This document shows positions 22,081 to 44,384 of a stretch of 64,000 bases of DNA, one piece after another. Under the pieces are notes generated by a model. The model was not told where the DNA came from and did no database searches. It saw nothing but the letters and a program-made list of their open reading frames with translations. Location: the NCBI RefSeq assembly GCF_016859125.1, contig NZ_CP069338.1:6077501-6141500 (forward strand), read 5' to 3'. Position 1 is the stretch's first letter. Each line of letters starts with the position of its first letter. This DNA is from Archangium violaceum. Lineage in GTDB: Bacteria > Myxococcota > Myxococcia > Myxococcales > Myxococcaceae. Both the position numbers and the translations under genes were made by a program.

Positions 22081-22392
22081 ATGGCACCGGGTGGACGAAT
22101 CATCCCTGCGCGCGTGCTGGCGCGTCTGGCCAAGGTGGACGTGCTGGTGATTGACGACTGGGGGCTGGCGCCGCTCAAGGAGCAGGAGCGCCGCGACATG
22201 CTGGAGATTCTCGAGGACAGGTACGGCAACCGCAGCACCCTCATGACCAGCCAGCTGCCCACCACGAAGTGGCACGACCACCTGGGTGACCCGACGGTGG
22301 CCGACGCCATTTGCGACAGGGTGCTACATAACTCCCATCGGGTCGTGCTAAAGGGCCCCTCCCGCAGGAAGGAGGAGTCTGCGGAGAAGTAG
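22081..22392 (+). pseudogene. Truncated IstB-like ATP-binding transposition helper
   Basis: The 103-codon frame ends like IstB: LAKVDVLVIDDWGLAPLKEQ (Walker B region), RRDMLEILEDRYGNRSTLMT and SQLPTTKWHDHLGDPTVADA, then CDRVLHNSHRV. Intact IstB proteins are about 250 residues with a Walker A motif; that half is absent here. In IS21 elements IstB is the AAA+ helper for the IstA transposase. The first dozen codons are probably not from the element. Confidence 0.85.
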
Positions 22393-22490
22393 GTCCCCGG
22401 TCAGCGTCGCTTCGCTCCGATCACGATGACCGATCCAGGTGATCACGATCGACCGATCTGGGTGATCACGATGGCCGGAATACGCAGTCG
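22081..22490 (+). mobile_element. IS21-family remnant (3' part with right-end repeats)
   Basis: An element fragment made of the 3' part of an istB-like gene and a noncoding end. The end carries GATCACGAT three times (22419-22427, 22441-22449, 22464-22472), spaced 22 and 23 bp, as in IS21-type terminal transposase-binding sites. istA and the left end are missing, so it cannot move by itself. Its right end abuts a truncated NTF2-like gene near 22490. Confidence 0.7.
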
Positions 22491-34746: not shown

Positions 34747-34767
34747 CGGCGCGCTCCTGAGCCCCAG

Positions 34768-34804
34768 CACTCCGGGCAACGAGGGGATGCCCTCGCTCGG
34801 AGTG
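34768..34804 (+). terminator. Nested stem-loop after the Ala/Gly-rich gene
   Basis: Outer arms CACTCCG (34768-34774) and CGGAGTG (34798-34804) enclose inner arms CGAGGG (34780-34785) and CCCTCG (34790-34795) with a GATG loop. It lies 22 nt after the stop codon. No T run follows. It probably separates this gene from the radical SAM gene. Confidence 0.5.
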
Positions 34805-34818
34805 CCTGGCCGGGGGGC

Positions 34819-34846
34819 GAGGGACGGAGTGAGGGTACCGGAAGGA
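34819..34846 (+). repeat. Second copy of the 28-bp intergenic repeat
   Basis: Matches 19954-19981 at 26 of 28 positions (GAGGGACGG-GTGAGGGTA then CGGAAGGA). The hairpin half seen at the first copy is replaced here by an unrelated stem-loop. It ends 42 bp before the radical SAM start. Confidence 0.6.
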
Positions 34847-34888
34847 TGCCGCTATACTCACCCTGTTCGGAAGGGTGGGTTTCGTCTC

Positions 34889-36607
34889 ATGCATGGCCGT
34901 CGCGTCCTCTCTCCAGTCCTGCTGCTCGGCGCCGGAACCGGCGAGGCCACCTGTGGGATTCTCTATCTCGCGGGCTACCTGCGGCGCGGTGGGATCGAGG
35001 CCTTCGTCCGGCTCTACGACGGGGACGAAACCGAGGACGAGGTGGCGCGCTCGCTCGAAGCGCTGGTGGCCCGCGTGCGCCCCCGGCTCGTCGGCATCAG
35101 CCTCAAATGGTTCCACCACGTCCACCGCGCGCTGCTCCTGGCTCGGACGTTGCGTGAGATCGACCCCGACATCCGGATCGTCGTGGGTGGCAACACCGCC
35201 TCGTACTGGTGGCGGGAGCTGCACGCGTTCGACTGTATCGATCATATCGTCCTGGGCGACGGCGAGCGGCCGCTGCTGGCGCTCTGCCAGGGAGAACCGT
35301 CCCCACCCAACTGTGTCACCAAGGGGCCGGACGGCTCCCCGAGGCGGTTGCCACTCGAGTACGTGCAAGGCGCCACGAACAGCGAGGACGTCTACTACTC
35401 GCACTTCAATGACATCTTCCTGAGCCACCAGGATCGCCACGCCTTCTCGGGGTGGGTCGCGCCCGGCAAGGGGTGCGGTGAGAACTGCCTCTATTGCGGT
35501 GGGGCCCGCGGCAACCAGAAGGCGGCATTCGGACGCGCGAAGCCATTTCTGCGCTCCGAGGAGAGTGTGCGCCGCGACCACCAGGAGATCGCCCACCGGA
35601 CGTGGCAGTTCCGCTACGACTTCGCGGGAAGCTCGGCGGCGTTCCTGCAAGGCACCTGGGCGGGGGTCGATCTCTCACGCCACTCCTGTATGTATTTCCT
35701 GTGGGGAGTGGCCCGGATGGAGCTCATCGATGCCCTGGCCCAGACCTTCGAGCACGTCCACATGGTGCTCGACATCGGCTGCTTCTCGGAACAGCAGCGG
35801 CACGAGCAGATGCGTCGTGGCCTGCTCAAGCCGTGTGCCTCGGACCAGCAACTCCTGGAGATCATCGACGGCTGCCGCCGTTACAAGAACCTGGACGTCG
35901 AGGTCTCTGGAATCGCGGGCCTGCCCTTCGCCAGCGCCGCCACGCTCGAGGAGGAGGTGCGCCTGGTGGAGCGGGTGATCGCCCTCGACTGCCTGGTGGG
36001 CTACCAGCGGCTCGAAGCGCAGCCCGGGGCGCTCGCCACCGAGCACCCCACGCGGTTCGACATGGTGAGCGAAGCGCGAACGTTCACGGAGTTCCTCGAG
36101 TACTTCGAGCAGCGCGAGCCCGGTGATGTGTCGGTGCCGATGCTGCGCTTCCGCGACGCGGCGCTCGAGCGGGCGGTGCAGCGCACGTCGGAGCACGTGG
36201 ATGCCCTCGCGAGGACGCACGAAGAGAAGAAGCAGAGGATCGCGATCAACGGACGCACGCGACTGAAGAACACCGCCCCCTCGACGCTTCGGTTCAAGCT
36301 CGGTGATTGGTTGGGAGCTCATCGAGTCCCCGCGAAGGTGGCGCAGGAGCAGGTGACCGTCGTCCGGTCGGTGAACGGAACGGGCCTGGCCTGTGCACCT
36401 TCGCTCAGCCCGCGAAGGTTCACCGACCCGACGCTGGATCAGGGCGAGGACGGGAGGATCCTCCTGACCACCCTGGCCGCCTTCGAGCAGCCGACGACGG
36501 TCGCCAGCGCGGTGGCGCAGCTGGGGGCGACGTTGAAGCTCGATCCGCACTCGGCGCGCGAGGTCATCGAGCATCTCGTTGACGGACGCTTCCTGCAGCC
36601 GGCGTGA
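34889..36607 (+). CDS. B12-binding-domain radical SAM enzyme
   Basis: A 572-residue enzyme starting at ATG 34889. Residues 1-140 form a cobalamin-binding-like Rossmann domain (VLLLGAGTGEATCGILYLAG, RPRLVGISLKW, IRIVVGGNTAS). The DxHxxG histidine motif is absent, so any B12 would bind without that ligand. The radical SAM cluster is Cys196-x3-Cys200-x2-Cys203 in GKGCGENCLYCGG. The TIM-barrel part runs to about 420. The last 100 residues (TTLAAFEQPTTVASAVAQLG, AREVIEHLVDGRFLQP) look like a PqqD/winged-helix peptide-recognition domain. The reaction is unknown; methylation or rearrangement of a peptide or natural product is possible. No precursor peptide was identified. Confidence 0.85.
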   Translation: MHGRRVLSPVLLLGAGTGEATCGILYLAGYLRRGGIEAFVRLYDGDETEDEVARSLEALVARVRPRLVGISLKWFHHVHRALLLARTLREIDPDIRIVVGGNTASYWWRELHAFDCIDHIVLGDGERPLLALCQGEPSPPNCVTKGPDGSPRRLPLEYVQGATNSEDVYYSHFNDIFLSHQDRHAFSGWVAPGKGCGENCLYCGGARGNQKAAFGRAKPFLRSEESVRRDHQEIAHRTWQFRYDFAGSSAAFLQGTWAGVDLSRHSCMYFLWGVARMELIDALAQTFEHVHMVLDIGCFSEQQRHEQMRRGLLKPCASDQQLLEIIDGCRRYKNLDVEVSGIAGLPFASAATLEEEVRLVERVIALDCLVGYQRLEAQPGALATEHPTRFDMVSEARTFTEFLEYFEQREPGDVSVPMLRFRDAALERAVQRTSEHVDALARTHEEKKQRIAINGRTRLKNTAPSTLRFKLGDWLGAHRVPAKVAQEQVTVVRSVNGTGLACAPSLSPRRFTDPTLDQGEDGRILLTTLAAFEQPTTVASAVAQLGATLKLDPHSAREVIEHLVDGRFLQPA

Positions 36608-36685
36608 GGTGCGGGGTGTGGACCCTGGCGGGCATCGCTTGCACGGGTGGCGGCGGGGCTGGAATCGCCCCGCCCCCTGCCGCTG

Positions 36686-38763: not shown

Positions 38764-39312
38764 TGGGGCGGAGTTGCTCACCACCTGCTTTCGACGCATG
38801 GGAGGTTCCTCGGGGTTGGGTGCAACGAATCGTGCCAGGGTGAATGGGTTCTGTACTGTTGGTCAAGACGCTGAATTCAGATAATTCCGGCAACGCGCCG
38901 CATCATTCATGCAGCGCATTGCGGCATCGCCTGAACGCGGTGCGTTGCGTCACCCGTGATGTTTGTCGGGTTCGTTTACTTCCAGACAGGGCGTGCCCGT
39001 GCCACCTCATTCCTCGAATGGTCTGAGCGCTCGAGACGAGCGCAATCCCATTCCAAAAGCGGTCGCGCGAGCCATCTGGAATTCCAACTTCATCATGTGG
39101 GCCGTCCGTCCTCGACGGCGCCATGTTCGATGCGCTCGTCTTCAATCCAGACATCAACCGGGGTTTCGGCTTCGGCCGTATCTCGGCGCCGACCTTGGAT
39201 GACCCCGAACCCGCGGCTGATGAAAGCGGCGGGGAGGTGGACCCCTCTTTAGGTAGGAGGATGTGGGTTGGACTTTTCTTGGAATATGGGATTACAGTGG
39301 TGTTCAAGAAAT
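38764..39312. other. Intergenic stretch between GH43 and pilX
   Basis: About 550 bp. A short plus-strand frame (39123-39344) codes FDALVFNPDINRGFGFGRIS but has no ribosome site or known family, so it is not called. The segment 39251-39312 is unusually A/T-rich for this genome and is the probable promoter region of pilX-pilY1. No RNA gene or repeat is recognised. Confidence 0.4.
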
Positions 39313-39810
39313 ATGACGCCGAGACCGAGTTTTCCCCGCGGTAACGCCCTGCTGCTGACGCTCATCGCCAACGCGGTGCTGCTGGTTCTGGTGGTGGGGG
39401 CCATCCAGTTCACCCGCTTCAACCGCGAGGCCTCGACCGAGAGGCTGCGGGGCGAGGGCGTCAGTACCTGCGCGGATGTGGCGCGCAGGCACCTGCTGGC
39501 GCGCCTGAAGCTGTACGGCTCGTCCTCCATCTTCCAGCTGCTGGACACCCAGCTCATCGATGATCCGGATCCCCAGGCGCGCACGTCGATGGTGACGGGG
39601 CACTACGGCTCGGTGGGTGCGCAGCCCACGGTGGTGGTGGTGAACCCGGAGCAGATGGGAGCCTCGGACCGCCAGGTGCGCGACATCGTCAACATCGCTC
39701 CGGCGGGTGGCGGCTTCCTGGGCGGCCAGTACTACCGCGTGGTGGTGAAGTGTCAGGAGGGCTCGGGCCGCGAATCCGAGGTCGAGTTCCTCTTCCGTTA
39801 CGGTTTGTGA
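39313..39810 (+). CDS. PilX-like minor pilin assembly protein
   Basis: A 165-residue protein. The N-terminus MTPRPSFPRGNALLLTLIAN, then AVLLVLVVGA, has the short charged leader and long hydrophobic helix of type IV pilus PilX-like proteins (RGxALLLTL pattern). The remainder is an extracellular globular domain (STCADVARRHLLARLKLYGS). The ribosome site is weak and an earlier start in the same frame is possible. It lies 11 bp before pilY1 and is probably cotranscribed. The usual fimT/fimU, pilV and pilW partners are not next to it. Confidence 0.75.
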   Translation: MTPRPSFPRGNALLLTLIANAVLLVLVVGAIQFTRFNREASTERLRGEGVSTCADVARRHLLARLKLYGSSSIFQLLDTQLIDDPDPQARTSMVTGHYGSVGAQPTVVVVNPEQMGASDRQVRDIVNIAPAGGGFLGGQYYRVVVKCQEGSGRESEVEFLFRYGL

Positions 39811-39821
39811 GGCGAGGCACC

Positions 39822-42800
39822 ATGTTCCGCAAGCTGTCGCTCCATCTTGTCATGTTGCTTGTGGGAGCCGTCGCGCTCCGGGCGGACACCGCGGTCGCGA
39901 TCGATCAGGCGGCCTGCTGTCTGCCGACCACGTCGCGGTTGGATGCCCTGATGAACCCGCTCAAGGGCAGCGACGAGAAGTTCTTCTCGCGGTCCGGCGG
40001 TCCTCCCAACATCCTCTTCGTCGTGGACACCGCCACGTCGATGCACGCCTGGCCCACGGCCTGGTCCAGCACGCGGGGCTGCTCGGACCCGTTCATCAAC
40101 AGCCTGGGCTACGACAAGAACACCCAGTATGACCGCCTGTGGACGGGCGTCAGCAGTCAGTCCAGCAACTGGTTCGACAATGCGAAGTACTACGACGCGC
40201 CCGCGGGAGGGTACGGCGTCCTCTTCGGTGGCTCGCCGGCCGCGAGCACCTGGACGAGCGTGTCCACCGCGTGCTCGTCCCTCAATGGAATCGGCGCGGC
40301 CGACCTGACCACCTGTCTGGCGTGCCTGGACAACCAGGGCTACTACATCCACGACAGCGACAATCGCCGGGTGAAGGGCAACTTCCTGAACTTCTACGCG
40401 CCGCGCGACTCGGGTGCCGTCAAGGTGCTGGCGGACGTGGTGCGCGACCTGCGCGAGGTGCGCCTCGGAGTCATCGGCTTCCAGACCAAGGCCGCCAGGA
40501 CGTGCTGGGGCAAGAAGCAGAGCAACGGCAACCAGTGTCTGTGTATCGAGCAGGCCTCGGGGCCCAGTTGCGCCAAGTCCTACCCGCTGGACAGCAGCGC
40601 GGTGGAGAACAACCGCAACTCGCTGCTCAACGACCTGACCAACGTCAACGCCAACAACAGCAACGGTCTGGGCTGGGGCGGCTGTGCCTCTCCGCTGGCG
40701 GATGCGCTCTACGCGGCGGGCTACTACTTCCAATCCAAGACGGCCCCCACGCCCTTCACCACCTACCTGGGCGCCCACCCGACGAGCACCAACTTCAACA
40801 TCACGGACGCGGTGTGCTTCGAGTGTGGCTTCAACGCCATCATCCTGCTGACGGACGGTAACTTCCAGGAAGAGGGCGACGTGGTTACTCCGCTGCCCTC
40901 CGCCATCACCAGCGACCCGGTGGCCTGCGACGGCTGCTTCCCCAACCCCTCGAAGACGAGCAACCTGCACAAGGTGGCCAGGTTCCTGTGGGAGAACGAC
41001 CTGCGCTTCGACATGGCGGGTCAGCAGCGCGTGGCCACGTATACCATTGGCTTCTCCGAGAGCGCGGCCAGCAGCGCGCTGCTGCGCACGACGGCCCAGG
41101 TGGGCGGCGGCAAGTTCTTCCCGGCCCGCAGCACCAGCGAGCTCAAGCGCGCCATCCTGTCCATCGTGGACGACATCAACGCGCGCAACACGTCCTTCTC
41201 CGTGTCGGCCATCAGCACGCTGCAGACCCAGAGCGAGGCGCTGACGGCGATCGTCCCGCGCATGCTGCCCTCCAAGAACGATGCCTGGACGGGCAAGCTG
41301 TTCCGCTACCGGCTGTTCAACGAGTTCGTCGAGGACCAGGACAAGAACGGCGACGGCGACCGTTCGGACGTGCTGCTCGTCGACAAGGAGGGGAGCGTCA
41401 TCGCGGAGGACGGCTCGAGCACCTACCGCAAGGTGGTGGGCCAGAACCCCGATGGCACGCCCCTCCTCGGCGCCACCGCCACCGCCTACTGGGAGGCGAG
41501 CTCCAAGCTATACGAGACCACGCACTCGGGCCGGAACATCCTGACGGTCACGGACAGCAACAAGGATGGATTGCTGAACCACAACGACGCGCTCATCCCC
41601 TTCAACCTCGCCAACCTGGGCCAGCTACGTCAGTACCTGGCGGTGAGCGGGGCGCCGCTGTGCCCCACCGGGACTGGAATCACCTACAAGCCGGGCCTCC
41701 TCCTGACCCGGATGCAGATGCCCCTGCAGGCGGACCTCTCGCGAGCGGTGTCCTCGACGGGCCTGTCCTCCGTGGTGGGGCTGCCGGCCACCCCCACGAC
41801 CCAGCAGGATTATGATCTGCTGTGCGCGGCGCTCGTCATGCAGTACGTGCGCGGGCAGGACATCCTCGACGAGAACGTGAACGGCAACCGCCTCGACACC
41901 CGGCCGTCCCTGCTGGGTGACATCTTCCACTCGTCGCCGGTGATGGTGGACCCTCCGGCGGACAAGTTCGTGTGCGACCTCGGCGTCGGCAACCAGTGCG
42001 TGCGCACGCTGTACGCCGTCCCCAATGACCAGACCCGGCAGGGGGCTACCCCCATGGTCACTCCACCCAACGAGCTGCCCGCCACGTGCGAGACCGGTAC
42101 CTCGGAGTCCAAGCCCCGTGACGCCTACGAGTACTACCAGTTCCTCAACCGCCAGCGCGAGCGCCTCATCCTGGTGGGCGCCAACGACGGCATGCTGCAC
42201 GCCTTCAGTGATGGAAAGGGCATGCTGAAGGACGCCCGGACGTGTGACTACGAATACACGGGCGAGGAGGATGATGTCGGTCAGGAGCGGTGGGCCTTCA
42301 TCCCGCCGGACGCGCTCCCGCGGTTGCAGGAGCTGCTGCAGGGCCACAGCTATCTCGTCGATGGCGACATCATGGTCCGCGACATCTGGGCGGACTCGAA
42401 TGGGAACGGTCAGAAGGAATGGGATGAGTACCGCACCATGGCCGTGGTGTCCGAGGGGCGCGGCGGCATCCACTACTTCGCCCTGGAGCTGAAGTGGCTG
42501 TCGAACGGCTCGGCGACGCTCGATGCGCAGGCACCCTCGTTCCGCTGGATGTTTCCGCAGCCGTGCTCGGACGAGGCGCAGCGCTTCGGCAAGACGCTGC
42601 TGAGCCTCAGCCCCAAGCCGCCGCCGATCGGCCCCGTGCTGCTGCAGTCCGACAAGGGGCAGGAGCGCCATGGTCCGGACGGGCCCAGGAGCGTGGAGCG
42701 CTGGGTGGCGATGCTGTCGGGTGGCTGGTCTCCCGGCAATGAGAAGGGACGCGGCATCTACATGGTGGACGTGTGGAACGGCACGGTGAACGGCCGCCGC

Positions 42801-44384
42801 GACAACCTGCTGTGGAAGTGGGAGTTCGTGGACCCCGGTCCCAATGGCACCCCCACCCATCCGGATGATCCGCGCAAGGCCATGACGTACGGCTTCGTGG
42901 CCCCGGTGGCCCTGGTGGACTATGGCGCCAACGGCAAGGCGGGCTTCGACGGTTTCTTCGACACCGGGGTGGTGGGAGACCTGGGCGGCCAACTCTGGAC
43001 ACTGCGCTTCTACCAGCCGGGAGTGATCGACAACATCACCAAGCTCGTCAAGAATTGGAGTGGTGCACGCTCCTTCTCGATGGACCGGGATGGCGCGGCC
43101 GTGGGCAACACCAACAGCATCCGCTCCCGCTCGCCCTACTACTACCTGTCCTCGCTGGCGGTGCAGCCGGGCAACAAGGCCTTGCGCGCCTACGTGGGCA
43201 CGGGCAACCGCTACTCGCTGCTCGACAAGAACGCGGGCACCTGCCGCTTCGACAATCCGCAGACGTGCTCCAAGCTGGGGTGCACCCAGACGCAGGTGGT
43301 CTACAAGACGACGCGCGGCACGGACTACCAGCGGCTGAGCAACGAGTGGACGGACCGCGCCTACAAGCTCGGCCGCCACACCTCCTTCAGCGGCCCGGTG
43401 CCCACCAACTACTGCGGCTCGTCAGTCAACGCGTTCCTCAAGGCCGAGTTCGAGTCCCGCAACGCCCTCACCTGCCCCTCGCCCAGTGGCACCGGAACGC
43501 TCAGCTACGACTTCTCCCGTCCCCAGGTGTTGTGCGGTCAGGACTTGTCGGGCTCCACCTTCGACTGCCGCCTGTCGGTCGACATGGGCAACCCGCTGAA
43601 CATGAACGACCTGGACGTGAATGCGTCCAGCACCTCGAGCACGCTCGGCAAGAACCGCTTCTACGGCGTCTGGGTCTATGGTGGTCCCGCGAACATGCCG
43701 GAGCGCACGTTCGACGAGGACATGGGCGGGGGGTCGGCCAACGTGGCCAGGGACTTCGATGCGCGGCGGCTGACGGATACCGGCAATACGTCGGGCACGG
43801 GAGACCTGGTCAACGTGACGAACGTGCAGTGCGATGCCCAGGGCGTCTGTACGTGCGCGAGCGGAATGAAATGCGACACCCGGCTGGTGTCGGGCCCGGA
43901 GGACGCCGGCTGGTTCTACGAGTACGAGGGACTGGAGCACAAGACGGCCAGTGGCGCGGCGGTGCTGGCCAGCTGCTCCCTCTGGAACTCCATGTACCCG
44001 TCGACCGTCACCAGCGGCGGGCCCTGCTCGGGCACGTCCAGCAACCGGGCCCGCCTCTTCCAGGGCGACTACATCTCCGGCGCCCCCAACTGCGCGGCGG
44101 CCTTCCTCGACAAGAACACCGGCTACGCGCGCTACCAGACGCGCTCGGTGGTGGCGCCTCCGCCCGAGCCGGCGACGGCCATCCAGGTGTCGAAGACGGG
44201 GCAGGTGAAGTACAGCACCATGTTCATCGAGCCCGGCAAGTCGCAGGCGAGCGATGTAGCGGTGTCAGCCGGCGGAGACGTGCTGCAGTACATCTACGAG
44301 CTGCCCGTCTCGAAGGAGCTGCACTCGTGCCGGCACGACCATGAGAACGGCGGACAGACCTTCTGCACGCCCTCGGAGATGTAG
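39822..44384 (+). CDS. pilY1: PilY1-type pilus tip adhesin
   Basis: A 1520-residue exported protein. The signal peptide covers about residues 1-27. A von Willebrand A-like domain starts at NILFVVDTATSMHAWP (64-79) and runs to about residue 480. Calcium-loop sequences DQDKNGDGDRSD (near 505) and DSNKDGLLNHND (near 580) follow. The C-terminal beta-propeller characteristic of PilY1 includes RLILVGANDGMLHAF, GGIHYFALELK, IYMVDVWNG and GGQLWTLRFYQPG. Many Cys residues are spread through the C-terminal third. PilY1 sits at the tip of type IVa pili and primes pilus extension for motility and adhesion. Myxobacteria have several pilY1 copies; this one is paired only with PilX. Confidence 0.9.
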   Translation: MFRKLSLHLVMLLVGAVALRADTAVAIDQAACCLPTTSRLDALMNPLKGSDEKFFSRSGGPPNILFVVDTATSMHAWPTAWSSTRGCSDPFINSLGYDKNTQYDRLWTGVSSQSSNWFDNAKYYDAPAGGYGVLFGGSPAASTWTSVSTACSSLNGIGAADLTTCLACLDNQGYYIHDSDNRRVKGNFLNFYAPRDSGAVKVLADVVRDLREVRLGVIGFQTKAARTCWGKKQSNGNQCLCIEQASGPSCAKSYPLDSSAVENNRNSLLNDLTNVNANNSNGLGWGGCASPLADALYAAGYYFQSKTAPTPFTTYLGAHPTSTNFNITDAVCFECGFNAIILLTDGNFQEEGDVVTPLPSAITSDPVACDGCFPNPSKTSNLHKVARFLWENDLRFDMAGQQRVATYTIGFSESAASSALLRTTAQVGGGKFFPARSTSELKRAILSIVDDINARNTSFSVSAISTLQTQSEALTAIVPRMLPSKNDAWTGKLFRYRLFNEFVEDQDKNGDGDRSDVLLVDKEGSVIAEDGSSTYRKVVGQNPDGTPLLGATATAYWEASSKLYETTHSGRNILTVTDSNKDGLLNHNDALIPFNLANLGQLRQYLAVSGAPLCPTGTGITYKPGLLLTRMQMPLQADLSRAVSSTGLSSVVGLPATPTTQQDYDLLCAALVMQYVRGQDILDENVNGNRLDTRPSLLGDIFHSSPVMVDPPADKFVCDLGVGNQCVRTLYAVPNDQTRQGATPMVTPPNELPATCETGTSESKPRDAYEYYQFLNRQRERLILVGANDGMLHAFSDGKGMLKDARTCDYEYTGEEDDVGQERWAFIPPDALPRLQELLQGHSYLVDGDIMVRDIWADSNGNGQKEWDEYRTMAVVSEGRGGIHYFALELKWLSNGSATLDAQAPSFRWMFPQPCSDEAQRFGKTLLSLSPKPPPIGPVLLQSDKGQERHGPDGPRSVERWVAMLSGGWSPGNEKGRGIYMVDVWNGTVNGRRDNLLWKWEFVDPGPNGTPTHPDDPRKAMTYGFVAPVALVDYGANGKAGFDGFFDTGVVGDLGGQLWTLRFYQPGVIDNITKLVKNWSGARSFSMDRDGAAVGNTNSIRSRSPYYYLSSLAVQPGNKALRAYVGTGNRYSLLDKNAGTCRFDNPQTCSKLGCTQTQVVYKTTRGTDYQRLSNEWTDRAYKLGRHTSFSGPVPTNYCGSSVNAFLKAEFESRNALTCPSPSGTGTLSYDFSRPQVLCGQDLSGSTFDCRLSVDMGNPLNMNDLDVNASSTSSTLGKNRFYGVWVYGGPANMPERTFDEDMGGGSANVARDFDARRLTDTGNTSGTGDLVNVTNVQCDAQGVCTCASGMKCDTRLVSGPEDAGWFYEYEGLEHKTASGAAVLASCSLWNSMYPSTVTSGGPCSGTSSNRARLFQGDYISGAPNCAAAFLDKNTGYARYQTRSVVAPPPEPATAIQVSKTGQVKYSTMFIEPGKSQASDVAVSAGGDVLQYIYELPVSKELHSCRHDHENGGQTFCTPSEM

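Follow-up and report, generated by a model that had tools for sequence, protein, structure and literature searches.

A gene for a B12-binding radical SAM enzyme stands alone in the 64-kb window analysed here (the whole stretch of 64,000 nucleotides from the genome of Archangium violaceum), and raises the question of what such a solitary enzyme acts upon, and how its gene came to be where it is. The gene occupies positions 34889-36607 of the + strand with exact boundaries (ATG at 34889, stop codon TGA at 36605-36607), and its 572-aa product is described as a B12-binding radical SAM protein with a C-terminal RRE-like tail on the basis of the ORF, Pfam, homologues and a structural model. The ORF is not due to chance, since homologues at 53-95% identity occur in 84 of 96 Myxococcaceae genomes.

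The original prediction, made from the window's letters, placed the gene between repeats: the downstream neighbour, on the opposite strand, encodes a GH43 protein with ricin-type repeats, while upstream lies an Ala/Gly-rich ORF that has no Pfam match, and neither adjoins the gene in the relatives compared. Elsewhere in the window we note a very large PilY1-like ORF (39750-44384; PF05567 below cut-off) and, ahead of it, a small ORF (39268-39810) with a possible link to pili.

Enzyme class and cofactor residues

The B12-binding domain (Pfam PF02310, E 3.3e-13) spans residues 21-132 (34949-35284, + strand), is given a Rossmann fold by the model, and is present in 21 of 21 homologues. On inspection of the sequence, DxHxxG is absent after strand 1 of this domain, which bears out the prediction of a cobalamin domain lacking the histidine motif. 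The predicted cysteine motif is equally secure, with C196, C200 and C203 (35474-35497, + strand) invariant in all 21 aligned homologues and forming the CxxxCxxC for a [4Fe-4S] cluster that characterises class-1 cobalamin radical SAM enzymes. The Pfam Radical_SAM model falls below threshold for the 572-aa protein (13.6 bits against a cut-off of 29.5). The full-length fold predicted by AlphaFold2 (21 sequences, mean pLDDT 82.7) is that of a complete class-1 cobalamin radical SAM enzyme with a partial TIM barrel; TsrM is top-ranked in Foldseek (E 5.4e-15), and VIA-align returns Z-scores of 23.2 for CysS, 22.1 for MgmA, 21.2 for AprD4, 21.0 for OxsB and 19.4 for TsrM. That the protein is a cobalamin radical SAM enzyme is, in our view, almost certain.

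The best curated model, TIGR04190 (B12_SAM_Ta0216), reaches 75.5 bits against a cut-off of 500, and the other subgroup models likewise fall short (TIGR03975 29.3 of 281.85 bits, HpnR 25.4 of 650, BchE 24.4 of 481.35). TIGR04190 and TIGR03975 (rSAM_ocin_1, a RiPP maturation radical SAM C-methyltransferase) have the B12 and, in part, the radical SAM region in common with our protein. Judged by these profile scores, no curated subgroup fits the enzyme, and the close similarity to a hopanoid or bacteriochlorophyll methylase that would have contradicted the original prediction is not seen, whether to HpnR, BchE or any other characterised subgroup. A search of PDB sequences with the family profile yielded nothing useful. 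TsrM, OxsB, TokK and CysS, which are among the best Foldseek or VIA-align matches, resemble the enzyme in having a B12 Rossmann domain, a CxxxCxxC radical SAM domain and a C-terminal part, but are only 11-15% identical to it, and they act in known biosynthetic pathways whereas the gene studied here is solitary. MgmA, the methyl-coenzyme M reductase glutamine methylase, aligns with a Z of 22.1 over 362 residues and 17% identity, the highest among the full-length enzymes in the VIA-align list. By its title it acts on a protein made elsewhere, as is proposed below for our enzyme; it differs in being archaeal, in having 417 residues, and in lacking the tail, the alignment ending at residue 450 of our model.

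A 2025 review (PMC13331322) describes OxsB, TsrM and TokK as holding cobalt without a histidine ligand, and places Asn186 of OxsB, Arg69 of TsrM and Trp76 of TokK in the loop after strand 3. The missing histidine is thus normal in this class and is no distinguishing mark. In our model strand 3 comprises residues 67-71 and is followed by the loop L72-K73-W74-F75-H76-H77, of which K73 to H77 correspond to 35105-35119 (+ strand). Because of their place in this loop, and by analogy with TokK Trp76 and TsrM Arg69, K73 or W74 is likely to be the residue beneath the cobalt. K73, W74 and H77 are invariant in the 21 aligned homologues, as are C22, C298 and C316 besides the three cluster cysteines. Mean conservation across these homologues is 0.77 in the B12 part, 0.73 in the radical SAM part and 0.64 in the tail, and B12 domain, cluster motif and tail are all kept in every one of the 21.

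C-methylation is the commonest chemistry of cobalamin radical SAM enzymes, and by analogy with the class methyl transfer is the reaction that we somewhat favour. A reaction other than methylation is possible, given that the nearest folds include AprD4, which we take from its structure title to be a dehydratase, and OxsB, which is treated as a non-methyltransferase in the review cited above (PMC13331322).

The C-terminal RRE-like tail

Residues 451-572 (36239-36604, + strand) form the C-terminal domain of the original prediction, which proves to be conserved. Modelled alone (26 sequences, mean pLDDT 93.2), the tail is predicted to contain strands at its residues 8-11, 15-20, 38-43 and 49-53, a short helix at 21-25, helices at 69-81, 88-99 and 103-115, and a terminal strand. 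A strict definition of RREs given in a 2025 paper (PMC12710340) calls for three strands and then three helices in that order; the modelled tail follows the order of strands and then three helices, with a short inserted helix and an extra strand in addition. Among the families listed by VIA-align, the best matches of the tail are MibB (Z 9.0), MccB (8.4-8.6 over seven entries), TigE (8.5) and TbtB (7.5), followed by 3dee and ThcOx (both 6.7), MadB (6.6), McbBCD (6.2), PbtF (5.8), PqqD (5.7) and TbiB1 (5.6), with the DNA-binding proteins MecI (5.3) and BlaI (4.5) ranking below the RRE-bearing RiPP enzymes. These matches are taken to carry RREs, in part from their entry titles; the title of 3dee names a putative transcription regulator. 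Foldseek places TigE first (E 0.028) and PqqD next (E 0.056), every E-value exceeding 0.001. Since the structure of the tail matches RREs best, we consider an RRE-like fold probable.

The claim of a PqqD-like tail therefore stands at the level of structure, where the confident model does match RRE folds, but not at the level of sequence: the tail has no Pfam match to PqqD (PF05402) and is not among the PF05402 matches in its own genome, and when hhalign compares it with 32 PqqD-type domains of myxobacteria, P is a non-significant 0.071, albeit with the three helices in register. Compared with the RREs of PqqD, MccB, MibB and TigE, to which it is similar in its strands followed by three helices (Z 5.7-9.0), the tail shows no significant sequence similarity, has no linked precursor, and carries an additional strand and a short helix before its last two strands. 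It is also specific to this gene, with matches in 21 of 30 genomes searched, each of them in this gene.

Whether such a fold recognises anything is a separate matter. RRE folds presumably evolved from DNA-binding domains and may be vestigial (PMC7470986); consequently, while the fold is supported, a binding function is only putative. Within the tail, conservation is higher in the final pair of strands with its turn (0.70-0.85) than in helix 3 (0.62), and the groove between strand 3 and helix 3 is not singled out, a pattern that neither proves nor excludes peptide binding. We see the chances that the tail binds a peptide or protein as evenly balanced.

Distribution and change of site

Each of the 84 genomes with the gene has a single match, with the exception of G088, in which two pieces at contig ends represent one split copy; two full copies were found in none of the 84. 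All 64 genomes of eight genera (g1, g2, g4-g8, g19) carry it. Named carriers include Archangium, Hyalangium, Pyxidicoccus, Corallococcus, Citreicoccus and Myxococcus, with M. xanthus among the last. At the level of the class it is present in 85 of 147 genomes, one of them outside the family, and at the level of the phylum in 87 of 195, the two additional matches being weak and partial. Searches of plasmids, phages and viral contigs returned no match to the gene. One copy (L050, G091:C14:100480-102156) has an in-frame TAG, and may be a pseudogene or reflect a sequencing error. A record titled Comamonas sp. KCTC 72670 (L099, BNCN01000011.1) holds a gene 95.5% identical to the M. xanthus copy, in flanks common with Myxococcus loci, and is probably a mislabelled myxobacterial genome.

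Despite this near-universality, the surroundings of the gene are seldom the same. Over 19.5 kb of flanks, coverage of the window copy is 0.00-0.01 in 17 relatives while the gene itself is covered at 0.99-1.0, and flank coverage at purH in the same comparison is 0.63-0.95. At least 15% of the flanks is shared in 1 of 153 pairs of 18 genomes at this gene versus 153 of 153 at purH, which was the only control locus compared over the 18 genomes; the test is blind to common gene order between very divergent pairs. According to rough gene calls by our own script, the genera have no neighbours in common with one another, and within Archangium neighbours are only seldom shared. In a wider set, reduced from 85 to 65 loci by removing those with identical gene ends or less than 4 kb of flank, we distinguish 38 site groups. 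Set against the 200 kb that surround the gene in G031, the window matches only at 34799-36611 (94.65% DNA identity), and against the corresponding 200 kb of G006 only at 34852-36616 and in a 379-bp stretch (22108-22486). This 379-bp stretch has a 97% identical counterpart some 57 kb away from the gene in G006, and is possibly a repeat or the remnant of an insertion sequence.

Loss of gene order alone is not special, since a separate, accessory TIGR03975 RiPP-type B12 radical SAM gene of the same genome (L233, G000:C1:5565334-5567151, above cut-off) is likewise poor in conserved flanks (0-0.14); an isolated PqqD-family ORF of 99 aa about 63 kb upstream of the window (L152, G000:C1:6014253-6014408) has flanks kept at 0.54-0.86. 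What is unusual is the combination of a changing site with near-universality.

The alignable unit extends slightly beyond the ORF. Upstream DNA on the + strand (34799-34888) can be aligned in relatives despite the differing sites, from 34799 against G031 and from 34852 against G006, homology with the latter starting at a TATACTC box (34853-34859, + strand) that is a putative promoter-like -10 element. Across seven comparisons of the window with relatives (at least 90% identity), homology runs from 20-90 nt before the ATG to 1-11 nt after the stop codon. Among 70 pairs at this level of identity or above, 30 keep at least 500 nt on at least one side, and in the other 40 homology mostly extends 20-137 nt upstream and 0-58 nt downstream. 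In 28 of 65 loci the 60 nt upstream contain a promoter-like box, counted with one pattern and on the same rough gene calls. A strong hairpin (34767-34805, fold z -2.78) sits immediately ahead of the unit's left end, and may serve the upstream ORF as a terminator or be tied to the insertion point. Rfam gave neither a riboswitch nor any other RNA in the vicinity of the gene, its two matches being below gathering score. No transposase or integrase was found among the 20 immediate neighbours at ten sites, as roughly called, 17 of which matched other Pfam families.

The history of the gene also departs from that of its hosts, as represented by a control tree of five genes at the purH locus. The protein data reject the control tree (difference of 248 log units, p-AU 5.2e-51), the control-gene data reject the tree of this gene (p 5.4e-7), and the two nucleotide trees have 3 of 15 splits in common. 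For example, G000 and G031 are 95.5% identical in this gene but 85.4% in the control genes, whereas G004 and G006 show the reverse (92.5 versus 97.5%). The copy of G079 is closer to that of G000 (84.8%, versus 75.5% in the control genes) than to those of two congeners (79.7 and 80.5%), the lower value being that for G068, to which its control genes are 91.2% identical. Other pairs are without conflict (G034-G031, 85.8 versus 86.1%; G036-G035, 90.0 versus 90.6%). We consider it very probable that the gene has been transferred within the family with a change of site.

Two alternatives would dispense with transfer. The gene could have been inherited vertically in a hypervariable region, its apparent wandering being due to local turnover and the tree conflict to rate effects, and related genomes in Corallococcus and parts of Myxococcus do have a common site; indeed, where the proteins are at least 85% identical, 46 of the 255 pairs do so, mostly inside these two genera. 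Yet the AU test and the identities of G079 and of G000 and G031 argue against it, as do the 200-kb comparisons with G031 and G006, in which the common DNA is reduced to the gene and one 379-bp stretch, and the widely differing distances of the gene from purH, so that we regard vertical inheritance as highly improbable. Hidden old paralogues, in turn, would need a very large ancestral set from which exactly one was retained per genome. Against replacement by transfer itself, it can be objected that two copies should sometimes be caught together, as in none of the 84 genomes.

A probable substrate in trans and the proposed role of the enzyme

The original prediction left open that the substrate might be encoded elsewhere or have been missed nearby, and suggested looking for a conserved short ORF at homologous loci. 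None was found beside the gene: at the threshold applied, the 38 site groups have nothing in common in their flanks, and the adjacent precursor gene by which a RiPP locus is recognised is missing, there being no conserved flanking DNA at differing sites. A substrate missed nearby is accordingly unlikely, while one encoded elsewhere fits, as alignable DNA mostly ends no more than about 60 nt past the stop codon at differing sites. The same observation bears on the idea of a classical RiPP maturase whose own short precursor has been overlooked. The RRE-like tail would suit such an enzyme, and B12 radical SAM enzymes are known from RiPP pathways (PMC4632189), but with no conserved DNA adjoining the gene at differing sites the linked-precursor version is already largely refuted, and a dedicated precursor at a distance would have to be transferred along with the gene or be universal; we consider this improbable. 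Because the gene moves alone, without a companion, its substrate should exist in every member of the family, and the RRE-like tail makes a peptide or protein the natural candidate. The enzyme thus probably acts in trans on something common to all family members rather than on a linked precursor.

A stand-alone enzyme of resistance or self-protection, modifying a cellular target, would equally account for universality and for spread as a single gene, and would be in keeping with a lone gene that has its own short upstream region, is exchanged within the family and has no linked precursor. However, no similarity to known resistance methylases was found in Pfam or NCBIfam, and presence in 64 of 64 genomes of eight genera exceeds what is usual for resistance, which leaves this explanation rather improbable.

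Further clues come from outside the myxobacteria, where the sole clear relatives found belong to planctomycetes of the anammox type, Candidatus Anammoxibacter (34% identity over residues 1-450 in the first comparison), two further matches being weak and short. Of 392 genomes searched in that phylum, two have homologues, G195 (two copies, L192 and L127) and G437. These proteins (L127, L192 and L193; 462-473 aa) are 32-34% identical to ours over residues 1-459, and lack the tail that the myxobacterial proteins possess. Myxobacterial and Anammoxibacter proteins form one clade with support of 100/100, in a tree where only 2 of 30 TIGR03975 loci gave rows, both probably in wrong reading frames and neither bearing on any conclusion. 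The two copies of G195 are 85% identical and each has an LCM-type methyltransferase gene nearby. In one case a FabD-type acyltransferase is found on the same side as the methyltransferase, and a sulfotransferase and a PKS-NRPS protein on the opposite side; in the second case there is a cupin. The first copy sits in what resembles a PKS-NRPS cluster, so that the enzyme core may serve an assembly line in G195, and this position of a tail-less sister hints that carrier-bound small molecules may have been the original substrates of the core.

The myxobacterial enzyme might itself tailor a carrier-bound polyketide or nonribosomal peptide, as CysS or TokK do, with a tail that is vestigial or contacts the carrier protein. 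Besides the G195 sisters, this is favoured by CysS being the best VIA-align match. On the other hand, a scan of the immediate neighbours at ten sites revealed no biosynthetic cluster gene, the tail is retained in all 21 aligned members, and the gene is universal in genera whose biosynthetic clusters differ. We regard a tailoring role as unlikely.

Our preferred explanation, in which we place about as much belief as doubt, is a stand-alone class-1 cobalamin radical SAM enzyme with a peptide or protein substrate in trans, its gene being passed within the Myxococcaceae. The enzyme, most likely a C-methyltransferase, would bind B12 base-off without a histidine ligand and with K73 or W74 under the cobalt, and its [4Fe-4S] cluster would bind SAM. 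The RRE-like tail would hold a segment of a peptide or protein that is made elsewhere in the cell and present in every family member, and the core would modify the segment so held. The short upstream region and ORF would pass between Myxococcaceae and settle at a new place, the resident copy being lost. More tentatively, and with doubts outweighing confidence, we propose that promoter-like leader and ORF make up a self-contained unit, exchanged and re-sited without a known mobile element or double copies, whose RRE-tailed product modifies a universal peptide or protein in trans.

A gene found once in each of the 64 genomes of eight genera, often at differing places, poses the question of how it moved without a transposase and why it was neither lost nor doubled. 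Should the tail prove to be a functional recognition domain, the enzyme would be a solitary B12 radical SAM protein that locates its target in trans, and its substrate must then be present in almost all members of a family that has been well studied.
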